Part shown: piece by piece, positions 27,689 through 41,641 of the stretch | Layout of the letters: each line of letters starts with the position of its first letter | How positions within the stretch are numbered: the stretch's first letter is position 1 | DNA from: Alkalinema sp. FACHB-956 | GTDB taxonomy: Bacteria; Cyanobacteriota; Cyanobacteriia; Leptolyngbyales; Leptolyngbyaceae | DNA length: 64,000 nt | Assembly: GCF_014697025.1 (NCBI RefSeq) | Contig: NZ_JACJRC010000008.1 | Span: 62,001 to 126,000 of the forward strand | Reading direction: 5' to 3' | The notes under the pieces: generated by a model | Seen by the model: the letters and a program-made list of their open reading frames with translations, nothing else | The model's database searches: none | What the model was told of the DNA's origin: nothing | Made by a program: the position numbers and the translations under genes

Positions 27689-28189
27689 CTAGGGCGCTGC
27701 TTGTGAGTCAGGAGACTGGAGACTCGCTTCCTGGCTGGTCTGAGTACTGAGGTTCTGAGTGTTAAGGTTCTGAGTGCTGAGGTTCTGAGTGCTAAGCTTC
27801 TGGGGTCTCGGGGTTAAGGGATGCTCCAAAAAAGCATACTCTTGGACAACTTGCCCACCAATGAGATGCTGCTGAATAATCTGTTCAATGACCTCAGGTG
27901 TTGCACATCGGTACCACACCCCCTCAGGATACACCACGAGGATGGGGCCTTGTTGACACACTCGTAAACAGTTGGCTTTCGTACGAAAGATACAGGTGGG
28001 CCGATCGGGTTGAGGTTGATCTAGCTTCAATTCGCTGAGGCGTCGCTTGAGATAGTTCCAAGCTTCTAATCCCACTTCCTGGCTACAGCACAGGGGTTTG
28101 GTTTGATCTGCACAGATGAGAAGGTGACGCTCGATGGTGCGTAAACCAAGGGTGCGAATACAAGCGTCTAAGGAATTCTCTTGAGACAT
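27689..28189 (-). CDS. thioredoxin-like [2Fe-2S] ferredoxin domain protein
   Basis: A 166-residue protein with a thioredoxin-like [2Fe-2S] fold (residues about 18-115), the fold of NuoE and shethna-type ferredoxins. Cluster cysteines are visible in [11 protein letters not shown] and CLRVCQQGP; the segment [11 protein letters not shown] and the ending [13 protein letters not shown] are typical. The C-terminal 35 residues are a low-complexity tail made of LSTQN repeats that correspond to a 15-nt DNA tandem repeat (about 27735-27795). The tail is probably disordered and of recent origin. It is monocistronic. A redox partner cannot be inferred from the neighbours. Confidence 0.88.
27737..27795 (-). 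repeat. 15-nt in-frame tandem repeat encoding LSTQN
   Basis: Roughly four copies of a GAGGTTCTGAGTGCT-like unit are read on the minus strand as LSTQN or NLNTQ in the protein's C-terminal tail. Confidence 0.9.
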
Positions 28190-28426: not shown

Positions 28427-29152
28427 TTATTCGATCGGACTGACCTTTGCCCGATAGAGCAATTTTTCTCCCTGCCGATAGCCAGAATATCGGATCCGTA
28501 CCTGATCACCTGGATTGGCGCTCCCTGCCATTAATTGATGTTGGTGCGGATCAAACGGAATTTCGTCCCCTACCGTTCCGATGGGGAGAAGTCCCCACTG
28601 TTGAAGCAGCGTTTCCACCGGGCGTACTAGGGGAATCAAATTAACAGCAGGTAATTGGGGATTTTTCTGGGCGGCATGAACAGCAGCAGACCATTGCAAT
28701 AACCAAGGTTCCAGCGTTTGTAGACTGGTTTGCTGAAATTCTTGCCACAGTTGTTCCCGTTGTTGCTGTAACTGCTGCACGAGTCGATCGTATTCCCCTT
28801 GCAGATTGTTGGAGGGCGGTAAATGATGGGCTGGCGGTGCGGTCGGTTCCTGGGAAAACTGCTGGAATAGCGCTTCGATCGAGATCTCTAAAGCACTAGC
28901 TAACCGGGTTAATGTCCTAATTTTCATCAGCGGAAGATGACCGCGCCGTAGACGGGTAATCGCTTTTTCCGAAATGCCTGCCCGCTGACTGAGGTTGCGA
29001 AAACTGGGAATGCCTTGAGCCTGCATCAACGCTTGTAAACGCGCTGTGTATTCCGGTGACTGGGTGGGATGCGGTGAGGGGGTAGATGGAGCGCTAGAAG
29101 ACTGGCTAACGGATGGATGGGACGATGGGTTGACCGATGGATGGAACGACAT
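28427..29152 (-). CDS. XRE-type HTH protein fused to a GrpE-like C-terminal domain
   Basis: A 241-residue protein with three parts. Residues 1-32 are a Ser/Pro-rich tail. Residues about 33-95 are an XRE/Cro HTH (NLSQRAGISEKAITRLRRG and LTRLASALEISIEALF). Residues about 115-165 are a Gln-rich helix. Residues about 175-241 resemble the GrpE head: LIPLVRPVETLLQQWG, then GLLPIGTVGDEIPFDP, H in HQHQL, PGDQVRIRYSGY and GEKLLYRAKV, matching the GrpE beta-domain pattern. This suggests a regulator linked to DnaK-type chaperone exchange. No dnaK or dnaJ is adjacent. It is read leftwards, divergent from the DUF486 gene. Confidence 0.78.
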   Translation of the reverse strand: MSFHPSVNPSSHPSVSQSSSAPSTPSPHPTQSPEYTARLQALMQAQGIPSFRNLSQRAGISEKAITRLRRGHLPLMKIRTLTRLASALEISIEALFQQFSQEPTAPPAHHLPPSNNLQGEYDRLVQQLQQQREQLWQEFQQTSLQTLEPWLLQWSAAVHAAQKNPQLPAVNLIPLVRPVETLLQQWGLLPIGTVGDEIPFDPHQHQLMAGSANPGDQVRIRYSGYRQGEKLLYRAKVSPIE

Positions 29153-29234
29153 AGTTTACCTTGAGCACGACCCCAGTTTTAAATATCCCATACGGACGAT
29201 CGATCATAGGGTAAACGTTTGTTGAGGAAGCGGT

Positions 29235-31579: not shown

Positions 31580-34500
31580 ATGAATCCTGATTTTTTTGCT
31601 GCGGCTTCGGCGATCGCGCCGTTGACCGATCATTTGTCCCTATCGACCAGTCCCCTAGACCTACCCCCATTCTCTGGGGCGACGACTGGGCGATCGCTCG
31701 TTTTTATCGATGGGGGGGTGGAAAACTACCAGCAACTTCTGACGGGACTGAATGCGGGAAGTTCTGCATACTTTATTGATCCCCAGCAGAACGGGATTGA
31801 TCAGATTAGCCAGGTTCTCGCTGGATTGAGTGACGTTGCTGCCATTCATATTGTTTCCCACGGCAATGTTGGCAGGCTCAAACTGGGGAATGCGGATCTG
31901 AGCGGCGATACCCTCGGACTCTACGCCGATCGCCTGCATCAGTGGGCGACACATTTAACCGAAGATGCCGATATCTTCCTCTATGGCTGTGATGTAGCCC
32001 AAGGGGATTTGGGAACCACCTTTGTGCAACAATGGGCAACCCTAACAGGGGCAGATATTGCGGCTTCTAATAACCTCACGGGGAATTCCGACCTAGGGGG
32101 TGATTGGACCCTAGAAGTTAACACAGGTGCGATCGCGACCAACCTCGCCTTTCAATCAACCACCCTAACGCAGTATCAAAACACGCTGCTTACACCGATT
32201 AGTACAGCAGAATATAACAGCTTTAAAGCTGGGGTTAATGATTTTCTAGCACTGGCGCAAACGGGAATTGATACGATCGCCTTTGCCCAACGCTTACCCC
32301 TGGTTGGCAGTCAATTAGCCAGTACCGCAAAATTTTTCCAAACGCTGAAGAACGATTTAGCAACCGCCTGGGCCACGCTAGAAGCGATTCCTGTGGCTGA
32401 TTTAGATAGCGAAGATATCCGCAGCACGATCGCGACTGCTTTAGCGCCCTACCTACCCAGCGGCGTTACGGTGACTGAAAATGCGAGCCAGGTTGTCTTT
32501 AACTTAGATCTGAGTCGAGTGGTGAATTCTAACCTGGACTTTGATCTGGGCTTAGATGCGATCGGGCTGAGTGTTGGCAGCAGCGGCAATATCAATACTC
32601 AATTAGGGTATACCTTGCCGCTTAAGTTTGGCGTTGATTTAACTAGCAGTGAATTTTTTGTTGATACCAGTGCGCTGAATGAACTCGCGATCGGCTTAAC
32701 GGTCACCACACCGGGACTCAGCGCCACCGGACGACTAGGCTTTTTGCAAGTCAATGTGGCTGGGCAAGATAGCCAAGGCAACGCCACCAATTTTGCGGGA
32801 CAGTTTCAGGTTGACCTGCGCGATCCCAACAGCGACGGACGCCTCACCGCCAGCGAACTCGCCGGACTCAGCGCAACCCAACTACTCAGCTCCAAACTCC
32901 AAGCCAATGCGGATCTGAACTTAGGGCTAACCACGAGCTTTGGTGGTTCTGCGGCGTTCCCTTCTTTGAAAGCGGATTTGAATATTGATTGGGCCTTTGA
33001 TCCCAATAATCTCAATCTCCTCCCCACCGCAGCTTTTAATAATGCGCGTTTGAATCTGGGTGAGTTTTTTAGTGAATTTGTTAATCCCATCTTTTCAGAA
33101 ATTCAAAAAGTTTTAAAACCGATTCAGCCGGTTTTTGATGTTCTGAATACCCGTATGCCCGTCCTATCAGATATTGGGCCACTGCGGGATATTTATGATT
33201 TGGATGGGAATGGCACCGTCACGCTATTAGAATTCGTCGGCAAGTCTAGCGGCAATGAAAGTGCTGCAAAATTCCTCAGTGCGGTCACTCAAATTGCGCA
33301 ATTTATTAACAGCATTCCCACGGGCGTGGGGGATGTCTATATTCCCCTAGGTAATCTGCGGTTAAACGACAGTCCCACAGCGGATTTGCGCACAGCAGGT
33401 TTACTGAATAGTCTCAATTTAAATAACGCGAGCTTGGTCGATGACTTAACGAATCTGTTACCCGGTGTTGATAATGCAACTCGCAATATTCTAAACAACT
33501 TTAAGAGCAGTACTAGCAACGCGAACTTCAGCGGGGGCCTAGCCTTTCCGTTATTGCAAAATCCAACCACTGCCTTGGGGTTACTTCTAGGTCGGAACGT
33601 TTCGCTCTTTACCTTAGACTTACCGGCCCTAGGCACCAACTTTAACGTTAGTCAATTTTTCCCCATCCTCGGCCCCTTGGGCGTACGCTTAAGTGGCAGT
33701 TTTGACTTCCAGGCCGACTTTAACTTTGGCTACGACACCGAAGGCTTCAAACAATTTGCTACAGCGTTGGACGGCGGATCGATCGACCCCAGTTTGATTT
33801 TCAACGGTTTCTACATCAGTGATACCGCATCCCCCGATGGCAACGGCCCTGATATCCCCGAAGTCAAGATTAATGCCAGCGTTCAGGCATCTGGGGAAAT
33901 TAATGTCATCGTTGCAGCGGCTGGCGTGGGCGGCGGACTATTTGCCACAGTGAACCTCGACCTGCGCGATCGCGATCCTGCCACAGGCAATTCCGTACCC
34001 TATGCTGACGGCAAAATTCGCCTCGATGAATTAGGCAAAAACTTCGCAGCGAATGGCCCCCTTGGGATTTTCACCGCATCGGGTAAGTTGACTGCGGGGT
34101 TAAATGCCTACATTAAAGTCGGCGTTGACTTACCCTTTGTCGGTTTTGTTGGCTGGCAGGATTCCTTTGACATTGCCACTGCCACCCTCCTTGACTTTGA
34201 TACAGACACCTCAAAACTTGCTCCTAATCCTGTCTTAGCAGAATTCGATCCGACCTTAGGCGCTAACGTCCTGCGACTCAACATGGGGCCTAATGCAGCG
34301 GCTCGGCTGGCAGGCAATCTAGATGATGCGAACGAAACGTTTAAAGTAACCCGATCGGCGGATGGCAGTAAATTACTCGTCACAGCCTTTGGCTATACCC
34401 AGGAATTTGACGCTAGTACCGTCGCTAAGATTTACGCAGAGGGAGGCGCTGGAGATGATGTAATCGACATCGCTGAGGATGTAGCAATTCCAGCAGAACT

Positions 34501-37500
34501 GTGGGGCGACTTTAATCCAGCACGCAACCCAGGCCGCAGTGAATTTGGCAATGACAAGATTTTCGCAGGAGGAGCCGCTGCCATTCTCCATGGTGGGGCT
34601 GGGAACGACGAATTAACCGCTCGATCGGGGGATTCCCAACTGTTTGGGGAAGCGGGCAACGATAAGCTATTTGGGGGCACCGGCAACGATACAATGCTCG
34701 GCGGCGAAGGAGACGATCGTCTCTACGCTAATGATGGCAACGACACTCTAGAAGGTAATCAAGGCGACGATTACCTTGAGGCGGGCAAAGGCAACGATAC
34801 CGTCTACGGCGGCGATGGCAACGATCGCATCAAAGGTGGGGACGGGAACGATACACTCTACGGCAATGATGGCACCGACATTATCGAAGCGGGGCAAGGC
34901 GATGATACGGCCTACGGTGGAGCAGGCAATGATTACATCTTAGATGAGGGAGAAATCGTCATTGTCAACAGCACGGATTCCCCTTCGCTTCCCCCCGGTG
35001 GCCCAGTGCTCGACAATGTGGTTGTGAAAAACAAACCAGGTTTATTGATTCAAGTCAATCTCTCCGCCGGTGGTGGCAACGATACCTTCTACGGTGAAAC
35101 AGGCAATGATGTCTTGTTTGGTCAAGCAGGTGTCGATATCCTCTACGGACAGGAAGGCGATGATTGGCTGGATGGGGGAGCCGATCGGGATTTCCTATTG
35201 GGTGATTTAGGCAGCGTCGATCGGGCAACGGAAACCGTCACACTCACACCGGGCAGTGGCGGCAATGATAAGCTCTTCGGCGGTAGTGGCAATGACGAAC
35301 TCTACGGGCAAGCAGGTGATGATGAACTCTACGGGCAATCCGGCGATGATGTCTTGATTGGTGGATTGGGCAATGATCTAGCGGATGGTGGAGCCGATCG
35401 AGATTGGGTACTGGGGGATGAAGGAAGTGTTAATCGTACGACCAACACTGTCACCCTGGGTGCAGGCAATGGTAACGATATGCTTTTTGGTGGTTCAGGC
35501 AACGATGATCTCTACGGTCAATTAGGTGATGATTTACTTTTTGGCGATAGTGCTCAAATCGTTAGCGTCAATGGTTCTACGGAACGAGTCGAATCGATCG
35601 ACACGACCAATGGTGGAAACGATCGCCTCTTCGGTGGCTTAGGACGGGATGTCTTGCTGGGTGGAACCGGGGACGATCGGCTATTTGGCAGTGACGAAAC
35701 TTACAGCGAAGTTGGAGCCGCCAATCTTCTCTTTGGCGATAATGGGGCCGTGCTGCGACGTAAGTCCGATTTGTTTATCACTGAAGTTGCGTCCACCAAT
35801 CCGGCCAACGGCGGACGTGACGAGATTCAAGCGCAAATCAGTGATGTCATTGTGGGCGGTTCCGGCGGTTTGGATGCCCCTGGTCTAGGAGGCGATCGTC
35901 TCTTCGGCAGTACAGGGAATGACATTATTCTGGGCGATAACGGTCGGGTAGTTCGCCGCAATGATGGTCAAGTCGATCGTATTGACCTACTGTTTAACGA
36001 TCAAGGGGGCGATGATCTGATTGAAGGTCGCGCAGGCAGCGATATTTTACTGGGCGGCGGCGGCAACGATCGCATCATTGGCGGCAGTCAGATTGCCAAT
36101 GCCAGCGATGGCGTCGATTACATCTTCGGTGGTGGGGGTGATGACGCGATCGCCGGGGGCAACGCCACCATTACAGACAATGCCAACCCAGCGGCGCGGG
36201 TGATTACTAATCTTGACAGTAGCGCGATCGTCAATTGGCTGTTTGGCGACTACGGTTTATTGACCTTTATCGGCATTGGCGATGATTTAAATAGCCGCTT
36301 GGGCTTTAAAGTGCTGGATTACTTTGCAGCCACCCTGACCAAAGCCCAAAGTATTCTAGGCGAAGCAGAAGGCAACGATCGGATCGTCGGTAATTTAGGT
36401 GCCGATCCCCTCTTCGGCGGTGGCGGCAATGACACGATCAGCGGCGGCGAAAACGACGATCGCATCTTGGCTGACTACGGTGTAATTGAACTGACGAACG
36501 GGAGTCCAACCCGCCTAGCCAGCACAGAGCCAAGCGTTGGCGGCAACGACATTGTCGAAGGCAGTAATGGTAAAGATTGGATCATTGGGGGAGCTGGAAA
36601 CGAAATCAACCTTGACGGCAGCAGCGGTCAAGACATCATTTTGGGTGACAACGGCGAAATTCTAATCAATAACGGAATCGTTACCCAAACCCGATCAACC
36701 AATCCAGAATTTGGCGGTAATGATGTTATCAACGGTGGCAATCAATCGGATATCATCATCGGGGGCAGCGGCAACGACCAAATGGATGGCGGTGCTGATG
36801 AGGCTTCAGATATTCTGCTAGGTGACAACGGCATTGTCTACGGTAATACTGCTAACCCCAATACTGCCAATGATATTGTTTCCACCGATCCCACCTTTGG
36901 CGGTCGTGACCAAATCTCAGGAGGTGCGGGCGATGACATCATCTTGGGCGGTTCTGGAGGCGGTGATATTGCGGGACAACTCGGCGATACAATTTTGGGA
37001 GGACTCGGCGACGATATCTTGCTAGGTGATGGGGGGCGCATTACTCGTAACAGCAATAACGAAGTCGAAAAAATTGAAACGCTCTTCCCCAGCAATGGCG
37101 GCAACGACATCATTAATGGCAATGAAGGTCGTGATATTGCGCTGGGTGGTGCCGGGGACGATACGATTTCCGGCGATGCAGGCAATGATATTTTGCTAGG
37201 CGATCAGGGTGTCGTTGACTTCAGTCTGGATGAAGATCTAGAAACGTTGGATGTGATTCGATCGATCGACCCCAGTTTAGGCGGTAAAGATACCATTTTC
37301 GGTAACGATGGTGATGATATCGCCTTTGGGGGCGCAAATGATGACACGATCGACGGCAATAACGGGAATGACATTTTGCTAGGTGATAATGGCAAAATCA
37401 CCTTGGATAGCAATCAGTTCATTACCCAAATCACAACCACCGATGGCCAAATCGGTGGCAACGATCGCATCAAAGGTTCCGCAGGCAACGATCGGGTACT

Positions 37501-40500
37501 AGGTGGATTTGGAAATGACGATCTCCAGGGCAACGCAGGCGAAGATATCCTACTGGGCGATAACGGCACTCTGGAATACGCCCTCGATAACAACCCAGAA
37601 ACCTTAGATTTAATTGCCACGATCGACCCCGAATTTGGTGGCAATGATGTCATTCAAGGCAACGACGATCGAGACATTGCCCTCGGCGGTGCGCAGAACG
37701 ATACGATTAACGGCAATGGAGGCGATGACATCCTCCTGGGTGATAACGGTCGCATTACCTATAGCAATGGCAAAATCCGTTTGATTGAAACCACCGATCC
37801 CACGATCGGCGGCCAAGATAATATTTTTGGCGATGATGGCAATGACATTATTTTAGGTGGTGCAGAAGCCGATTACCTCCGAGGCAATCATGGCAATGAC
37901 ACGATTCTAGGCGATCACGGAAAACTCGATTACGCCTATGCTGGCGATGACAAAGTTGCCGCTGATAGTAATCTCGACACCTTAGATTTCGTCACCACCA
38001 CCCATCCCACCTTGGGCGGCAATGATTTAATCTTCGGCGATCGGGGCAGCGATAATCTCCTAGGTGGCACCGGCAGCGATCGCATCTATGGAGACGAAGG
38101 ACTAGATACCCTGGATGAAGAATGGCAAGTCGTGGGTAATGCTGATTTGAACGGAGACGGCGCAAACGATCTCCTCTGGCGTAATCAAATCACCGGGCAA
38201 AATCTGCTCTGGGTAACCCGAGATGGCAAATTCTCGGAAGCCGTTCCCCTACCAGATGTTAACGATTTAAGTTGGCAAGTGGCAGGCATCTTTGATCTCA
38301 ATGGTGATGGCAAAAAAGACATTCTTTGGCGGCACAGCAACGGTACTCTAGTTGCCTGGAAAATGAATGGCATTACCTACGATTCCGGTTACTGGTTTAA
38401 TAATTCACCCGACAGTAACTGGCAGTTATTAAGCATTGCTGATCTAGCGGGTAATGGAACTCCCTATTTTGTTTGGCGACATATCACTGGCCCTATGGTG
38501 CTTTGGCAAATCCAAAATTTCCAACGAGTCAATGGATTCACCCTAGCCTATGCACCAGATGCTAGTTGGCAAGTGGAAAAAATCGCTGATGTCACCAATG
38601 ATGGTAAAGCTGATTTGGTATGGCGACATACCGCAGCCAACCTGGTTGTAATTTGGGCAATGGATAGGGACAAGGTGATTAATAGTAATGTTTTCACCCA
38701 TGTTACGGACTCCAATTGGATGATTGCGGGCTTTGCAGACTTCAACAAGGATGGTAAAACAGATTGGCTCTGGCGGCACAGAATATCTGGTGGAGCAGTA
38801 ATTTGGCAAATGAATGGGGTTAACCTTATCGGAGGCCAAGTATTTAATAATGCTCCGGCGCTCAGTTGGCAGATTGCTAGTCTAAGTGACTATACAGGGG
38901 ATGGCCAAGCAGATGTAGTCTGGCGGCATCAAGCATTAGGATTAACCGCTTTCTGGCAGCTAGAGGGTGCCAACTTGAAGCAGGGATGGTTTCTGCCCCA
39001 TGCCGATGAAAAGGTCTTTGATTCTACTTCGGCAGATCTCATTCTGGGTGACCATGGCAAATTCTACCCCGCCCTACTGCGCGATCGTAATTACGTCTCG
39101 ATCGACACCGCAGCTAACCAAGGCGGCGGCAACGACATTCTCTTTGGAAACCAAGGAGATGACACCATCCTAGGACAACAGGGACAGGATATTATCTACG
39201 GTGGTTCCGGTGAGGATGATATTCTCGGGGGCCATAATGTGCGCGGAGGAGCCGATGGTGACGATCAGGTCGATGGAGGCGCGAATTCGGATGTTGTGTT
39301 GGGTGATAACGGCCAAATTACCCGGCGACCTCTCGCAAACGGCAGTTGGCAGAAATACCCGGCCCCCTTTGCCGATACGATTCGCGATGTGATTCGCTTT
39401 GACGATGTCGATCGGGTTGGCGGTAACGATACTCTACGCGGCAGTGCAGGCGATGATATTTTGCAAGGACAACGGGGCAATGATTGGATTGATGGGGGTA
39501 AGGGCGATGATGAATTAATTGGGCAACTGGGCAATGATTTTCTGCTGGGTCGATCGGGTCAAGATTTTGCTCTGGGCGATACGGGCATTATTCTGCGGGA
39601 CTACAATCCCGATGGTACCCCACGCTTAAATCGTAATCAGTCCTGGCATCGGGATGCGCTGCTGCTGGATGTAGCCAATTTAGTCGATAGCTACAATCTT
39701 AATGCCATCCCCAATAGTGCCTTCCAGGATGCCAATATCGATAGTCTGCTCTTCACTGCTGCCAACGGACAGGGGGGGGTAGACAGTCAAGTGCAGGCCC
39801 TCAGCTTCTTCGATGATGGGCATGATTATCTTGATGGAGGGACAGGGGACGATAGCCTCTTTGGACAGCGGGGGAATGATTCGATGTTTGGGGGGGAAGG
39901 GAATGACTACGCTGAAGGGAATGCCGGTGATGACACGATCGAGGGTGGTTCCGGTGATGACTTCATCGTGGGTGATAATGCAACGAACATTGCACCCTTT
40001 AATCGGGAATTACCCACCGTCTTCCGAGGCATTCATCTAATTCAACAAGGAACTGGCTTGAACTTTGAGTTGGGTGAATTTGGCACGATCGTCATTCCCA
40101 ACCTGAGTCTGCACCCCCAAACCAATGATGGGCTTCTGACTACCGTAAGTTTGACGGAACCGATTACGTTTGACACCGCCCCCCAAGCCCCGATCTCACC
40201 CTTAATGCGTAATGGCAAAACCTGGCGACCCTTAATTTCCCTCATCCCCAACTTGACCCATCACTTAGATTTGCTATCAGGCAACGATCGCTTGAGTGAT
40301 GTGAGTGGTAACAATACGTTGATTGGGGATAACTACGCCAGCTTCCTACCCCTACGCACAGGTAATGCCGAGGTTGATAACAACTTGGATGACCTAGACA
40401 CGCTCATGCACCATGTCACCTACGATCTGCACGATCTGGAACTGACGCTACGGAATGGGCAACCGAAACAGACTCTGAGCATGGCCAACGATCAAATCTT

Positions 40501-41641
40501 CGGCGGCAGCGATCGCGATTTAATCTACGGGGATGACTTGACGCTCTACAGTCCCTTCCTAGTTCGATCGCCCAGTCAAATTGCAACGTTAGGCAGCACT
40601 GTTAATGCCCTCAAACAGGTACTTGGTCAGTTAGGAACTAGCTTGAATGCCAAGTTATTGAATGTTCCTAGCGCCTTACCGAATACCACGCTGTCCTGGA
40701 AAAATGATGTGATTCGCGGTGGCAATGGAGATGATTCTATTTTTGGCGGCGATGCCATGATGTTTGCGCCGTTGTTGAATAACTTTGATTACAACTTTGG
40801 TGATTTCTGGCGTTATGGCTATCGTCCTGTGAATAAAGCAGTACGACCTACCTTCCAAGAATTTGACTGGTATTTGAATAATGACAATATTCAGGGTGAT
40901 GATGGTCATGACTTTATGATTGGTGGCTATGCCAACTTAATTAGCCCGATCGTCACGCAAACTCCTACCACTGCGGATCAGGTTGTCAAATTCCGTAGCA
41001 GTTTGAATACCCTCATTGCAGATATTGAGAATGTCTGGATTCGGGAATTACATAACCGCACCTACGGCATTGATTACGCAAATCGTAACCGTAGCAATCA
41101 GTTAGTAGCTGGGAATACCATGATGAATGGTGGTAATGGCAATGATGTCATGATTGGGGATAATGCATCCATTCGTCTACCTATCCTGAATGGACAGGTC
41201 AGCCTGGGAATCCAGATTCAAGGCGGTGATTTGGATGTCACAGAGGAAGGTCACAATTTCTTTGGTAAGCTGCCCCACGCCTATGACACGCAAAATCGTA
41301 ATCTCGATAGTGGATTTGGCCAAGACCAAATGTTTGGCGGCAGTGGTACGGATGTCATGCTGGGTGAGCAGTTCTTTGATTGGCTCTACGGTCAGGAAAA
41401 TTATGATTATCTGTTTGCAGGTCGCGGCATTGATTTTGTGGATGGGGGAAGTGATAGCGATAACCTGATTCGCTACTATGCCAATCCCAGCCCCGATGAT
41501 GTCACCGCGATTACGCCCTACATTCGACCCAAGTTGCAATTACTCTTAAGCCCCCACCTATTGCAATATTTCCAAGAAATTGCCGCGAATCGCAACACCT
41601 TAGCTTTAGACGGGGAATTGCTGATGCAGTATCCCAATTAG
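31580..41641 (+). CDS. giant DUF4347 / RTX-repeat / FG-GAP surface or secreted protein (3353 aa)
   Basis: Domains in order: DUF4347 at residues about 38-195 (SLVFIDGG, HIVSHGNVGRLKLG, IFLYGCDVAQGDLG). Then about 750 residues of non-repetitive beta-rich sequence with EF-hand-like Ca sites (DPNSDGRLTASEL near 415, DLDGNGTVTLLEF near 539). RTX nonapeptides (GGxGxDxLx) run from about 950 to 2175, arranged as 60-100-residue super-units ending ILLGDNG. Six FG-GAP/VCBS-type repeats of about 50 residues (W..AG..D.NGDGK.D..WRH) occupy about 2180-2478. More RTX units continue to about 3290, then a short C-terminal tail. There is no N-terminal signal peptide, which suits type I secretion; no ABC/HlyD/TolC genes adjoin. 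Start is the ATG at 31580, with only a weak upstream CGGA. Probable Ca-dependent exoprotein or adhesin. Confidence 0.9.
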   Translation: MNPDFFAAASAIAPLTDHLSLSTSPLDLPPFSGATTGRSLVFIDGGVENYQQLLTGLNAGSSAYFIDPQQNGIDQISQVLAGLSDVAAIHIVSHGNVGRLKLGNADLSGDTLGLYADRLHQWATHLTEDADIFLYGCDVAQGDLGTTFVQQWATLTGADIAASNNLTGNSDLGGDWTLEVNTGAIATNLAFQSTTLTQYQNTLLTPISTAEYNSFKAGVNDFLALAQTGIDTIAFAQRLPLVGSQLASTAKFFQTLKNDLATAWATLEAIPVADLDSEDIRSTIATALAPYLPSGVTVTENASQVVFNLDLSRVVNSNLDFDLGLDAIGLSVGSSGNINTQLGYTLPLKFGVDLTSSEFFVDTSALNELAIGLTVTTPGLSATGRLGFLQVNVAGQDSQGNATNFAGQFQVDLRDPNSDGRLTASELAGLSATQLLSSKLQANADLNLGLTTSFGGSAAFPSLKADLNIDWAFDPNNLNLLPTAAFNNARLNLGEFFSEFVNPIFSEIQKVLKPIQPVFDVLNTRMPVLSDIGPLRDIYDLDGNGTVTLLEFVGKSSGNESAAKFLSAVTQIAQFINSIPTGVGDVYIPLGNLRLNDSPTADLRTAGLLNSLNLNNASLVDDLTNLLPGVDNATRNILNNFKSSTSNANFSGGLAFPLLQNPTTALGLLLGRNVSLFTLDLPALGTNFNVSQFFPILGPLGVRLSGSFDFQADFNFGYDTEGFKQFATALDGGSIDPSLIFNGFYISDTASPDGNGPDIPEVKINASVQASGEINVIVAAAGVGGGLFATVNLDLRDRDPATGNSVPYADGKIRLDELGKNFAANGPLGIFTASGKLTAGLNAYIKVGVDLPFVGFVGWQDSFDIATATLLDFDTDTSKLAPNPVLAEFDPTLGANVLRLNMGPNAAARLAGNLDDANETFKVTRSADGSKLLVTAFGYTQEFDASTVAKIYAEGGAGDDVIDIAEDVAIPAELWGDFNPARNPGRSEFGNDKIFAGGAAAILHGGAGNDELTARSGDSQLFGEAGNDKLFGGTGNDTMLGGEGDDRLYANDGNDTLEGNQGDDYLEAGKGNDTVYGGDGNDRIKGGDGNDTLYGNDGTDIIEAGQGDDTAYGGAGNDYILDEGEIVIVNSTDSPSLPPGGPVLDNVVVKNKPGLLIQVNLSAGGGNDTFYGETGNDVLFGQAGVDILYGQEGDDWLDGGADRDFLLGDLGSVDRATETVTLTPGSGGNDKLFGGSGNDELYGQAGDDELYGQSGDDVLIGGLGNDLADGGADRDWVLGDEGSVNRTTNTVTLGAGNGNDMLFGGSGNDDLYGQLGDDLLFGDSAQIVSVNGSTERVESIDTTNGGNDRLFGGLGRDVLLGGTGDDRLFGSDETYSEVGAANLLFGDNGAVLRRKSDLFITEVASTNPANGGRDEIQAQISDVIVGGSGGLDAPGLGGDRLFGSTGNDIILGDNGRVVRRNDGQVDRIDLLFNDQGGDDLIEGRAGSDILLGGGGNDRIIGGSQIANASDGVDYIFGGGGDDAIAGGNATITDNANPAARVITNLDSSAIVNWLFGDYGLLTFIGIGDDLNSRLGFKVLDYFAATLTKAQSILGEAEGNDRIVGNLGADPLFGGGGNDTISGGENDDRILADYGVIELTNGSPTRLASTEPSVGGNDIVEGSNGKDWIIGGAGNEINLDGSSGQDIILGDNGEILINNGIVTQTRSTNPEFGGNDVINGGNQSDIIIGGSGNDQMDGGADEASDILLGDNGIVYGNTANPNTANDIVSTDPTFGGRDQISGGAGDDIILGGSGGGDIAGQLGDTILGGLGDDILLGDGGRITRNSNNEVEKIETLFPSNGGNDIINGNEGRDIALGGAGDDTISGDAGNDILLGDQGVVDFSLDEDLETLDVIRSIDPSLGGKDTIFGNDGDDIAFGGANDDTIDGNNGNDILLGDNGKITLDSNQFITQITTTDGQIGGNDRIKGSAGNDRVLGGFGNDDLQGNAGEDILLGDNGTLEYALDNNPETLDLIATIDPEFGGNDVIQGNDDRDIALGGAQNDTINGNGGDDILLGDNGRITYSNGKIRLIETTDPTIGGQDNIFGDDGNDIILGGAEADYLRGNHGNDTILGDHGKLDYAYAGDDKVAADSNLDTLDFVTTTHPTLGGNDLIFGDRGSDNLLGGTGSDRIYGDEGLDTLDEEWQVVGNADLNGDGANDLLWRNQITGQNLLWVTRDGKFSEAVPLPDVNDLSWQVAGIFDLNGDGKKDILWRHSNGTLVAWKMNGITYDSGYWFNNSPDSNWQLLSIADLAGNGTPYFVWRHITGPMVLWQIQNFQRVNGFTLAYAPDASWQVEKIADVTNDGKADLVWRHTAANLVVIWAMDRDKVINSNVFTHVTDSNWMIAGFADFNKDGKTDWLWRHRISGGAVIWQMNGVNLIGGQVFNNAPALSWQIASLSDYTGDGQADVVWRHQALGLTAFWQLEGANLKQGWFLPHADEKVFDSTSADLILGDHGKFYPALLRDRNYVSIDTAANQGGGNDILFGNQGDDTILGQQGQDIIYGGSGEDDILGGHNVRGGADGDDQVDGGANSDVVLGDNGQITRRPLANGSWQKYPAPFADTIRDVIRFDDVDRVGGNDTLRGSAGDDILQGQRGNDWIDGGKGDDELIGQLGNDFLLGRSGQDFALGDTGIILRDYNPDGTPRLNRNQSWHRDALLLDVANLVDSYNLNAIPNSAFQDANIDSLLFTAANGQGGVDSQVQALSFFDDGHDYLDGGTGDDSLFGQRGNDSMFGGEGNDYAEGNAGDDTIEGGSGDDFIVGDNATNIAPFNRELPTVFRGIHLIQQGTGLNFELGEFGTIVIPNLSLHPQTNDGLLTTVSLTEPITFDTAPQAPISPLMRNGKTWRPLISLIPNLTHHLDLLSGNDRLSDVSGNNTLIGDNYASFLPLRTGNAEVDNNLDDLDTLMHHVTYDLHDLELTLRNGQPKQTLSMANDQIFGGSDRDLIYGDDLTLYSPFLVRSPSQIATLGSTVNALKQVLGQLGTSLNAKLLNVPSALPNTTLSWKNDVIRGGNGDDSIFGGDAMMFAPLLNNFDYNFGDFWRYGYRPVNKAVRPTFQEFDWYLNNDNIQGDDGHDFMIGGYANLISPIVTQTPTTADQVVKFRSSLNTLIADIENVWIRELHNRTYGIDYANRNRSNQLVAGNTMMNGGNGNDVMIGDNASIRLPILNGQVSLGIQIQGGDLDVTEEGHNFFGKLPHAYDTQNRNLDSGFGQDQMFGGSGTDVMLGEQFFDWLYGQENYDYLFAGRGIDFVDGGSDSDNLIRYYANPSPDDVTAITPYIRPKLQLLLSPHLLQYFQEIAANRNTLALDGELLMQYPN
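38121..39014 (+). other. FG-GAP/VCBS propeller module inserted in the RTX region
   Basis: Six repeats, each starting WQV, WQL, WMI or similar, with a NGDG-like Ca loop and a WRH end, encode a probable six- or seven-blade beta-propeller. The flanking RTX sequence (YGDEGLDT before, SADLILGDHGKF after) would join as one normal super-unit if the module were removed. No CGATCG occurs from about 38084 to 39081, although the site is common on both sides. Confidence 0.8.

Follow-up and report, generated by a model that had tools for sequence, protein, structure and literature searches.

Known Hsp70/GrpE systems

GrpE (PF01025) is the nucleotide exchange factor of DnaK, and the usual view is that one general exchange factor serves each bacterial cell. 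A study of the chaperones of Nostoc punctiforme counted "a single GrpE homolog" (PMC9239167). In the GrpE of M. tuberculosis, basic residues of the stalk touch both the NBD and the SBD of DnaK, and mutating a conserved stalk patch strongly cuts DnaK binding (PMC10803776). The DnaK1-DnaJ3-GrpE system of N. punctiforme is a specialised cyanobacterial Hsp70 system; it uses the single canonical GrpE, the DnaK1 gene lies beside the canonical grpE, and no HTH-GrpE is included (PMC9239167). A precedent for a dedicated Hsp70/GrpE pair away from the main dnaK operon is found in the GAP1-N2 GTPase conflict systems of Actinobacteria and Firmicutes, where HSP70 and GrpE pairs occur in about 14% of the neighbourhoods. 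Those systems, as described, differ from the present one in that they belong to other phyla, their partners are GTPases and FNIII proteins, and an HTH was not described (PMC7159879). A recent review of GrpE-like factors held nothing on cyanobacteria, fusions or DNA binding (PMC12987570), and searches of open-access literature did not turn up an HTH-GrpE with a lidless Hsp70. This fits the view, already taken in the original prediction, that such proteins are uncharacterised (PMC9239167, PMC12987570).

The window analysed here is a stretch of 64,000 nucleotides from Alkalinema sp. FACHB-956. It contains a real, conserved ORF on the minus strand (28427-29152), which encodes a protein of 241 amino acids from its ATG (P0001). 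The family of this protein shares with GrpE the stalk helix, the short helix and the beta-wing, the motifs FDPxxH and GY..G.[RK].L..A.V, and, in some branches, a position beside an Hsp70 gene. It differs from GrpE in carrying an N-terminal helix-turn-helix (HTH) or membrane anchor in place of the disordered tail and long stalk. The motifs N[FYL]RKR and DNxERA are gone from every member examined, and the associated Hsp70 belongs to a separate lidless clade. The gene appears to encode one partner of a second chaperone pair that has been overlooked. Its product is probably a divergent co-chaperone of the GrpE type whose dedicated partner is a second, lidless cyanobacterial Hsp70 and not DnaK1-3, with an HTH head that would address DNA. 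Set against the one general factor per cell, this would be a divergent GrpE paired with an Hsp70 of its own, and its head would be exchangeable: an HTH, a membrane anchor or no head at all. The features of the gene are as follows.

28427..29152, minus strand: whole gene for the HTH-GrpE-like protein P0001, 241 amino acids, with relatives in Cyanobacteriota
29054..29152, minus strand: residues 1-33, Ser/Pro-rich tail of low confidence (pLDDT 59-71 over residues 1-30; residues before 32 predicted without secondary structure)
28853..29053, minus strand: residues 34-100, Cro/C1 (XRE) helix-turn-helix, from Pfam HTH_26 and structural Z
28811..28852, minus strand: residues 101-114, variable linker (mean entropy 3.25 bits; pLDDT <50 at 104-106)
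28664..28810, minus strand: residues 115-163, GrpE-like stalk helix (predicted H115-163), which aligns to the canonical GrpE stalk
28595..28651, minus strand: residues 168-186, GrpE-like short helix (predicted H168-185; all 55 sequences have L182 and W186)
28436..28594, minus strand: residues 187-239, GrpE beta-wing, from predicted strands at 188-239 and Z to GrpE chains
28538..28555, minus strand: residues 200-205, FDPxxH motif, from strict [FY][DN]PxxH counts across the family
28442..28483, minus strand: residues 224-237, GY..GxK.L..A.V motif (G224 and V237 invariant; Y225, L231, L232, R234 and A235 nearly so)
29154-29160 and 29210-29216, no strand: exact 7-base inverted arms GTTTACC and GGTAAAC, in the gap to a divergent DMT_6 gene

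The GrpE body

Scanned singly, P0001 matched Pfam GrpE with 13.0 bits (E 0.083), below the curated cut-off of 25.8. The match was collinear, with residues 119-237 covering positions 39-161 of the 165 in the profile, and on its own it would be no more than suggestive. In a sequence search of the PDB, the best match of P0001 was the GrpE of T. thermophilus (residues 119-238, E 0.28); an NCBIfam scan of P0001 returned no GrpE match. The relatives showed that the signal did not arise by chance. In the A1 alignment of 55 A-type relatives, 48 matched Pfam GrpE at E<=0.1 when scanned singly, the best at 4e-11. Compared with the canonical cyanobacterial GrpE profile, the family profile aligned over 125-129 columns with a probability of 92-93% and E of 3e-7 to 6e-7, and the controls, eight column shuffles and one reversal, reached at most 0.26%. 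An HMM built from cyanobacterial GrpE alone found 18 of 69 family members at E<=0.01, being too narrow for most members taken singly.

The AlphaFold model of P0001 (pLDDT 88.7) comprised five HTH helices, a stalk helix at residues 115-163, a short helix at 168-185 and a beta-wing at 188-239. Foldseek against the PDB ranked first chain 8gb3_E, which is GrpE in the DnaK-GrpE complex from M. tuberculosis (E 4.7e-4), followed by the E. coli and Geobacillus GrpE structures (1dkg, 4ani). A second aligner (VIA) gave Z of 8.0-8.6 to GrpE chains for residues 101-241 (130-136 residues, rmsd 5.4-9.8), which is a middling Z alone. Residues ~115-239 are thus predicted to be a complete but divergent GrpE body with stalk, short helix and beta-wing.

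The fusion of an XRE-type HTH to GrpE that the original prediction proposed was borne out by Pfam HTH_26, the profile-profile comparison, AlphaFold and Foldseek. Whether the C-terminal region would be modelled as GrpE-like had been named as the deciding point, and AlphaFold returned a GrpE architecture with GrpE chains at the top of the Foldseek matches. The GrpE signature placed in the last 65 residues is real, but the homology is wider and spans residues 119-237. A "Gln-rich helix" had also been placed ahead of the GrpE domain. The helix is there, but, judging from the AlphaFold prediction and the structural matches to GrpE, it is part of the GrpE body and corresponds to the stalk (H115-163).

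N[FYL]RKR in the stalk and DNxERA in the bundle were both present in 31/31 canonical cyanobacterial GrpEs and in 0/69 family members (55 A, 10 B and 4 from the deep lineages and Pseudanabaena). The strict beta-wing motif [FY][DN]PxxH was found in 50/55 A members, 10/10 B members, all 4 members from the deep lineages and Pseudanabaena, and 31/31 canonical GrpEs. Because of the sub-threshold Pfam score and the absence of the stalk and bundle motifs, we classed P0001 as a divergent GrpE homologue and not as a canonical one. The window genome has one canonical GrpE (271 amino acids, E 8.6e-44), with DnaK ~1 kb downstream.

The helix-turn-helix head

The Pfam HTH_26 match in P0001 covered residues 38-95 with E 3.5e-8, which exceeds the curated cut-off, and 53 of the 55 A-type relatives, scanned singly, matched the same profile. 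In the predicted structure, the HTH resembled the 434 repressor, SinR and C-proteins with Z of about 8 and up to 8.8. The recognition segment is basic in the A family (mean charge +2.2 over residues 60-76), and Q64 (49/55) and R69 (45/55) are conserved. Over the whole A alignment, conservation was highest in the beta-wing and lowest in the linker. DNA tethering by this putative DNA-binding head is plausible.

A search for an operator upstream of the window gene and its relatives revealed no shared motif or dyad, and the recurrent upstream 8-mers seemed to fall inside the coding region of the upstream dps. The arms GTTTACC and GGTAAAC lie 49 bp apart between the window gene and the divergent DMT_6 gene. 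They showed no conservation upstream of the relatives, and for this reason they are not claimed as an operator.

The short Hsp70

The candidate partner is a short Hsp70. Two members matched Pfam HSP70 with E 2e-30 and 8e-30, and Pfam MreB matched as well. The ATPase landmarks DFGTxNT, DExTAAAxGY and DxGGGTxD are invariant or nearly so. AlphaFold predicted an NBD followed by a beta-rich C-terminal domain of ~145 residues, right after which the protein ends (~residue 535), and the long lid helices are absent. With phmmer, part of the ~145-residue domain aligned to the SBDbeta of DnaK, below significance, and DnaK constructs without SBDalpha were among the top Foldseek matches. From its sequence and its model, the partner is a predicted lidless Hsp70 that consists of NBD and SBDbeta and lacks the helical lid (SBDalpha).

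Distribution and linkage of the two genes

At E<1e-10, the GrpE-like family was detected in 130 of the 386 sampled Cyanobacteriota genomes, and a profile search added one further genome (G016). The survey in cyanobacteria that had been suggested at the outset thus gave 131/386 genomes with the family. Weak matches to P0001 in G004, G010, G018, G038 and G130 spanned the HTH alone and were excluded. Outside the picocyanobacterial family, most of the cyanobacteria sampled carry a member, and the absences, judging from genome size and family, largely concern the picocyanobacteria and the non-photosynthetic classes. Searches of plasmid and phage sequences with P0001 gave no match in either; with the short Hsp70, the plasmid search gave one informative plasmid, and the remaining matches were generic and DnaK-like.

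Both genes were found in 126 of the 386 genomes, the GrpE-like gene without an intact short Hsp70 in 5, the short Hsp70 without the GrpE-like gene in 1 (G241), and neither in 254. Two of the five (G051 and G305) had no short Hsp70, and the three others, all of one genus, had an Hsp70 pseudogene; with these five and G241, the link between the two genes is not absolute. In that genus, the pseudogene is riddled with stops and the HTH-GrpE-like ORF is intact (G147:C1:753061-754409, G183:C1:721847-723140, G268:C1:725312-726058). The Fisher p for the co-occurrence was 1e-94, which should not be read at face value, because the test ignores shared ancestry and this inflates the co-occurrence. Stronger evidence comes from the overlaps between the genes and from the agreement of the two tree topologies.

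The Hsp70 tree split into DnaK, deep, Hb (100/100) and Ha (99/98), and the GrpE-like tree split in the same way into GrpE, deep, B (100/98) and A (98/91). Some branches leading into these splits were weaker (89/92, 93/64), and long branches were present.

In the paralogous B branch, 9/10 members carry a hydrophobic N-terminal segment and 4/10 an HTH. Eight of the ten B genes examined share their strand with the short Hsp70 gene and either overlap it or lie at most 0.8 kb away. The overlap is 4 bp at loci L056, L063 and L073 and longer at L050 and L066, and gaps of 20-778 bp separate the genes at L057, L062 and L065. The B gene of G368 lies ~5 kb from the short Hsp70, and the B-type Hsp70 is absent from G121. 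In G177, an additional B-type HTH-GrpE gene and its Hsp70 gene share 1 nt. The deep lineages have a GrpE-like gene without HTH that overlaps Hsp70 by 1 nt (G044) or about 29 nt (G026); in G016 it lies ~50 bp ahead of a broken Hsp70. On the Pseudanabaena galeata plasmid pPg_01 (L183), a gene that RefSeq names grpE shares 16 bp with one for an "Hsp70 family protein", and its product matched Pfam GrpE with E 3.7e-11 and 43.4 bits, above the cut-off of 25.8. The window gene is a member of the A branch, in which Hsp70 was adjacent in only one of the genomes examined (G036), in the order dps, HTH-GrpE, Hsp70. The window genome encodes its A-type short Hsp70 (535 amino acids) on another contig (G000:C37:32560-34158).

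Further genes accompany some of the B-type pairs. On the plasmid (L183 5441-11385), the B-type GrpE-like and short Hsp70 genes are followed by DUF1257 (Ycf35-like), AAA ATPase (Ycf46-like) and DUF2997 genes, and at L062 (3007-5920) the pair occurs with DUF1257 (Ycf35-like) and AAA ATPase (Ycf46-like) genes. This arrangement suggests that the B-type pair is part of a larger module of functionally obscure genes, some of which are conserved in plastids. A suspected fusion of the Hsp70 and GrpE genes in G172 was rejected, since the additional segment resembles WD40 repeats; the protein (L186 1897-4446, 849 amino acids) is a short B-type Hsp70 with C-terminal WD40-type repeats.

Peroxide-stress context

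For 54 A loci, 1.2 kb or more of upstream sequence was available; a sulfiredoxin-like gene was upstream in 35 of them, and in 25 of these Dps was present too, on the same strand. Many cyanobacteria have, upstream of dps, a gene for a sulfiredoxin-like protein with a ParB_N fold and a GFSGCHR motif (L077 1839-2330). In Anabaena PCC 7120, asl4146 (SrxA) and all4145 (Dps) are strongly induced by H2O2 and top a table of H2O2-responsive genes, with printed values of 8.2 and 6.5 (PMC4518582). The srxA gene is a FurA target (PMC4788461), and FurC/PerR binds the region upstream of it (PMC10406281). The gene all4144 of the same strain is mentioned in one line as "probably a chaperon", taken from STRING (PMC8147232). 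It is probably the A-type orthologue by gene order, since the tags asl4146 (srxA), all4145 (Dps) and all4144 match the order srx-dps-HTH-GrpE. Another candidate orthologue in Anabaena, alr3809, was rejected because it is carB.

The upstream neighbour of the window gene is the divergent DMT_6 gene, and its downstream neighbour encodes a [2Fe-2S] ferredoxin-like protein. The srx-dps neighbourhood is absent from the window copy and from the other copies in its own genome, whose dps genes are on other contigs. The sensing of heat or misfolded protein put forward in the original prediction was not supported, and the gene context points instead to peroxide stress.

Proposed function of the protein and its head

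The short Hsp70 is the likely partner, and not DnaK, because the two genes co-occur, overlap and have trees that split alike, and because N[FYL]RKR and DNxERA have been lost. The canonical DnaK first proposed as partner is disfavoured: the family without these motifs tracks, and in one branch overlaps, the lidless Hsp70. In the proposed mechanism, the GrpE-like protein would form a dimer, the beta-wing of which would open the nucleotide cleft of Hsp70 and drive ADP/ATP exchange. The missing basic stalk patch would fit a partner without a helical lid. The HTH head may bind DNA as an address tag or as an operon-level regulator, and it would place Hsp70 action on the nucleoid or tie transcription to Hsp70 occupancy. 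The order sulfiredoxin-Dps-HTH-GrpE is consistent with a role mainly in the peroxide response. Because the head in the B branch is a predicted membrane anchor, whether an HTH is present or not, the family can be described as a localisation head plus a GrpE body; we favour a DNA address in A and a membrane address in B. An HTH is missing from the majority of B members and from every deep member, and it is therefore an add-on to the GrpE body and not its core.

The main alternative is that the protein acts mainly as a transcription factor, in which the GrpE-like body has lost its exchange activity and serves as a ligand-sensing and dimerisation domain that reads Hsp70 occupancy. This is conceivable, though we regard it as rather unlikely. 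It would agree with the Cro/C1 HTH and its basic recognition segment, with the loss of the canonical stalk and bundle motifs, and with the position in an srx-dps string that the protein might control, which is common for autoregulators. HspR with DnaK and HrcA with GroEL are chaperone-gated repressors and offer a likeness, namely a DNA-binding protein with chaperone-dependent activity, although theirs lack a GrpE domain. Against such a function, 6/10 of the B members examined dispense with the HTH yet retain the beta-wing and, in most cases, the linkage to Hsp70. In the deep lineages, an HTH could not be recognised in the members, and the beta-wing is the best conserved part of the protein.

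A less probable alternative takes the HTH as a protein-protein module that contacts the actin-fold NBD of Hsp70 or a client. The HTH of RodZ binds the actin-fold protein MreB in this way, Hsp70 and MreB have a common fold, and Pfam MreB matches the short Hsp70. At L056, L057 and L073, the HTH of the B protein follows a hydrophobic, probably membrane-spanning N-terminus, which is unusual for a transcription factor. However, the recognition-helix segment is basic and conserved, and the likely Hsp70-binding surface is already given by the GrpE body.

Slightly less probable again is an accessory GrpE that serves the canonical DnaK proteins and is targeted to DNA. The retained FDPxxH of the beta-wing and the fold, which resembles that of GrpE bound to DnaK, would suit such a factor. 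It would also predict genes without an intact short Hsp70, as were seen in five genomes. On the other side, N[FYL]RKR and DNxERA are universal in the 31 canonical GrpEs and absent from all 69 members here, the GrpE of M. tuberculosis needs the equivalent stalk region to bind DnaK (PMC10803776), and the genomic linkage is to the short Hsp70. That the GrpE resemblance is convergent or spurious and P0001 an ordinary XRE regulator with a coiled coil might be argued from its own sub-threshold Pfam score and from the 18/69 members found by the cyanobacterial profile, but this is very improbable and strongly disfavoured by the Pfam GrpE matches in relatives (to 4e-11), the profile-profile controls, the predicted structure, the Hsp70 linkage and the RefSeq name "grpE" of one relative.

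We return to the dedicated GrpE-type co-chaperone of the lidless Hsp70 as the preferred reading. Weighing against it are the rarity of an adjacent Hsp70 gene among the A members examined, the genomes in which one gene occurs without the other, the inflation of the co-occurrence by common descent, the missing srx-dps neighbourhood of the window copy, and the lack of a shared operator motif. The fullest form of this reading is tentative, and we place it at somewhat under even chances: cyanobacteria would have an unrecognised second Hsp70/GrpE pair in which the exchange factor itself binds DNA and, in peroxide stress, delivers the lidless Hsp70 to the nucleoid or makes transcription depend on Hsp70 occupancy, and a paralogous pair would act at the membrane near the Ycf46-type AAA ATPase and DUF1257 genes. 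If confirmed, this would be a simple bacterial means of placing Hsp70 action at DNA or membrane, and it would tie proteostasis to the Srx-Dps peroxide response. It would also provide a natural test of the roles of the canonical GrpE stalk and the Hsp70 lid, both of which are altered here, and give hypothetical genes such as Anabaena all4144 a testable role.

Other genes in the window

The [2Fe-2S] ferredoxin-like gene downstream of the window gene (27689-28189) encodes 166 amino acids with partial NCBIfam ferredoxin matches and a repetitive, NLSTQ-rich C-terminal tail. On the other side of the window gene, an ORF of 3353 amino acids (31580-41641) reads as an RTX/haemolysin-type calcium-binding repeat protein.
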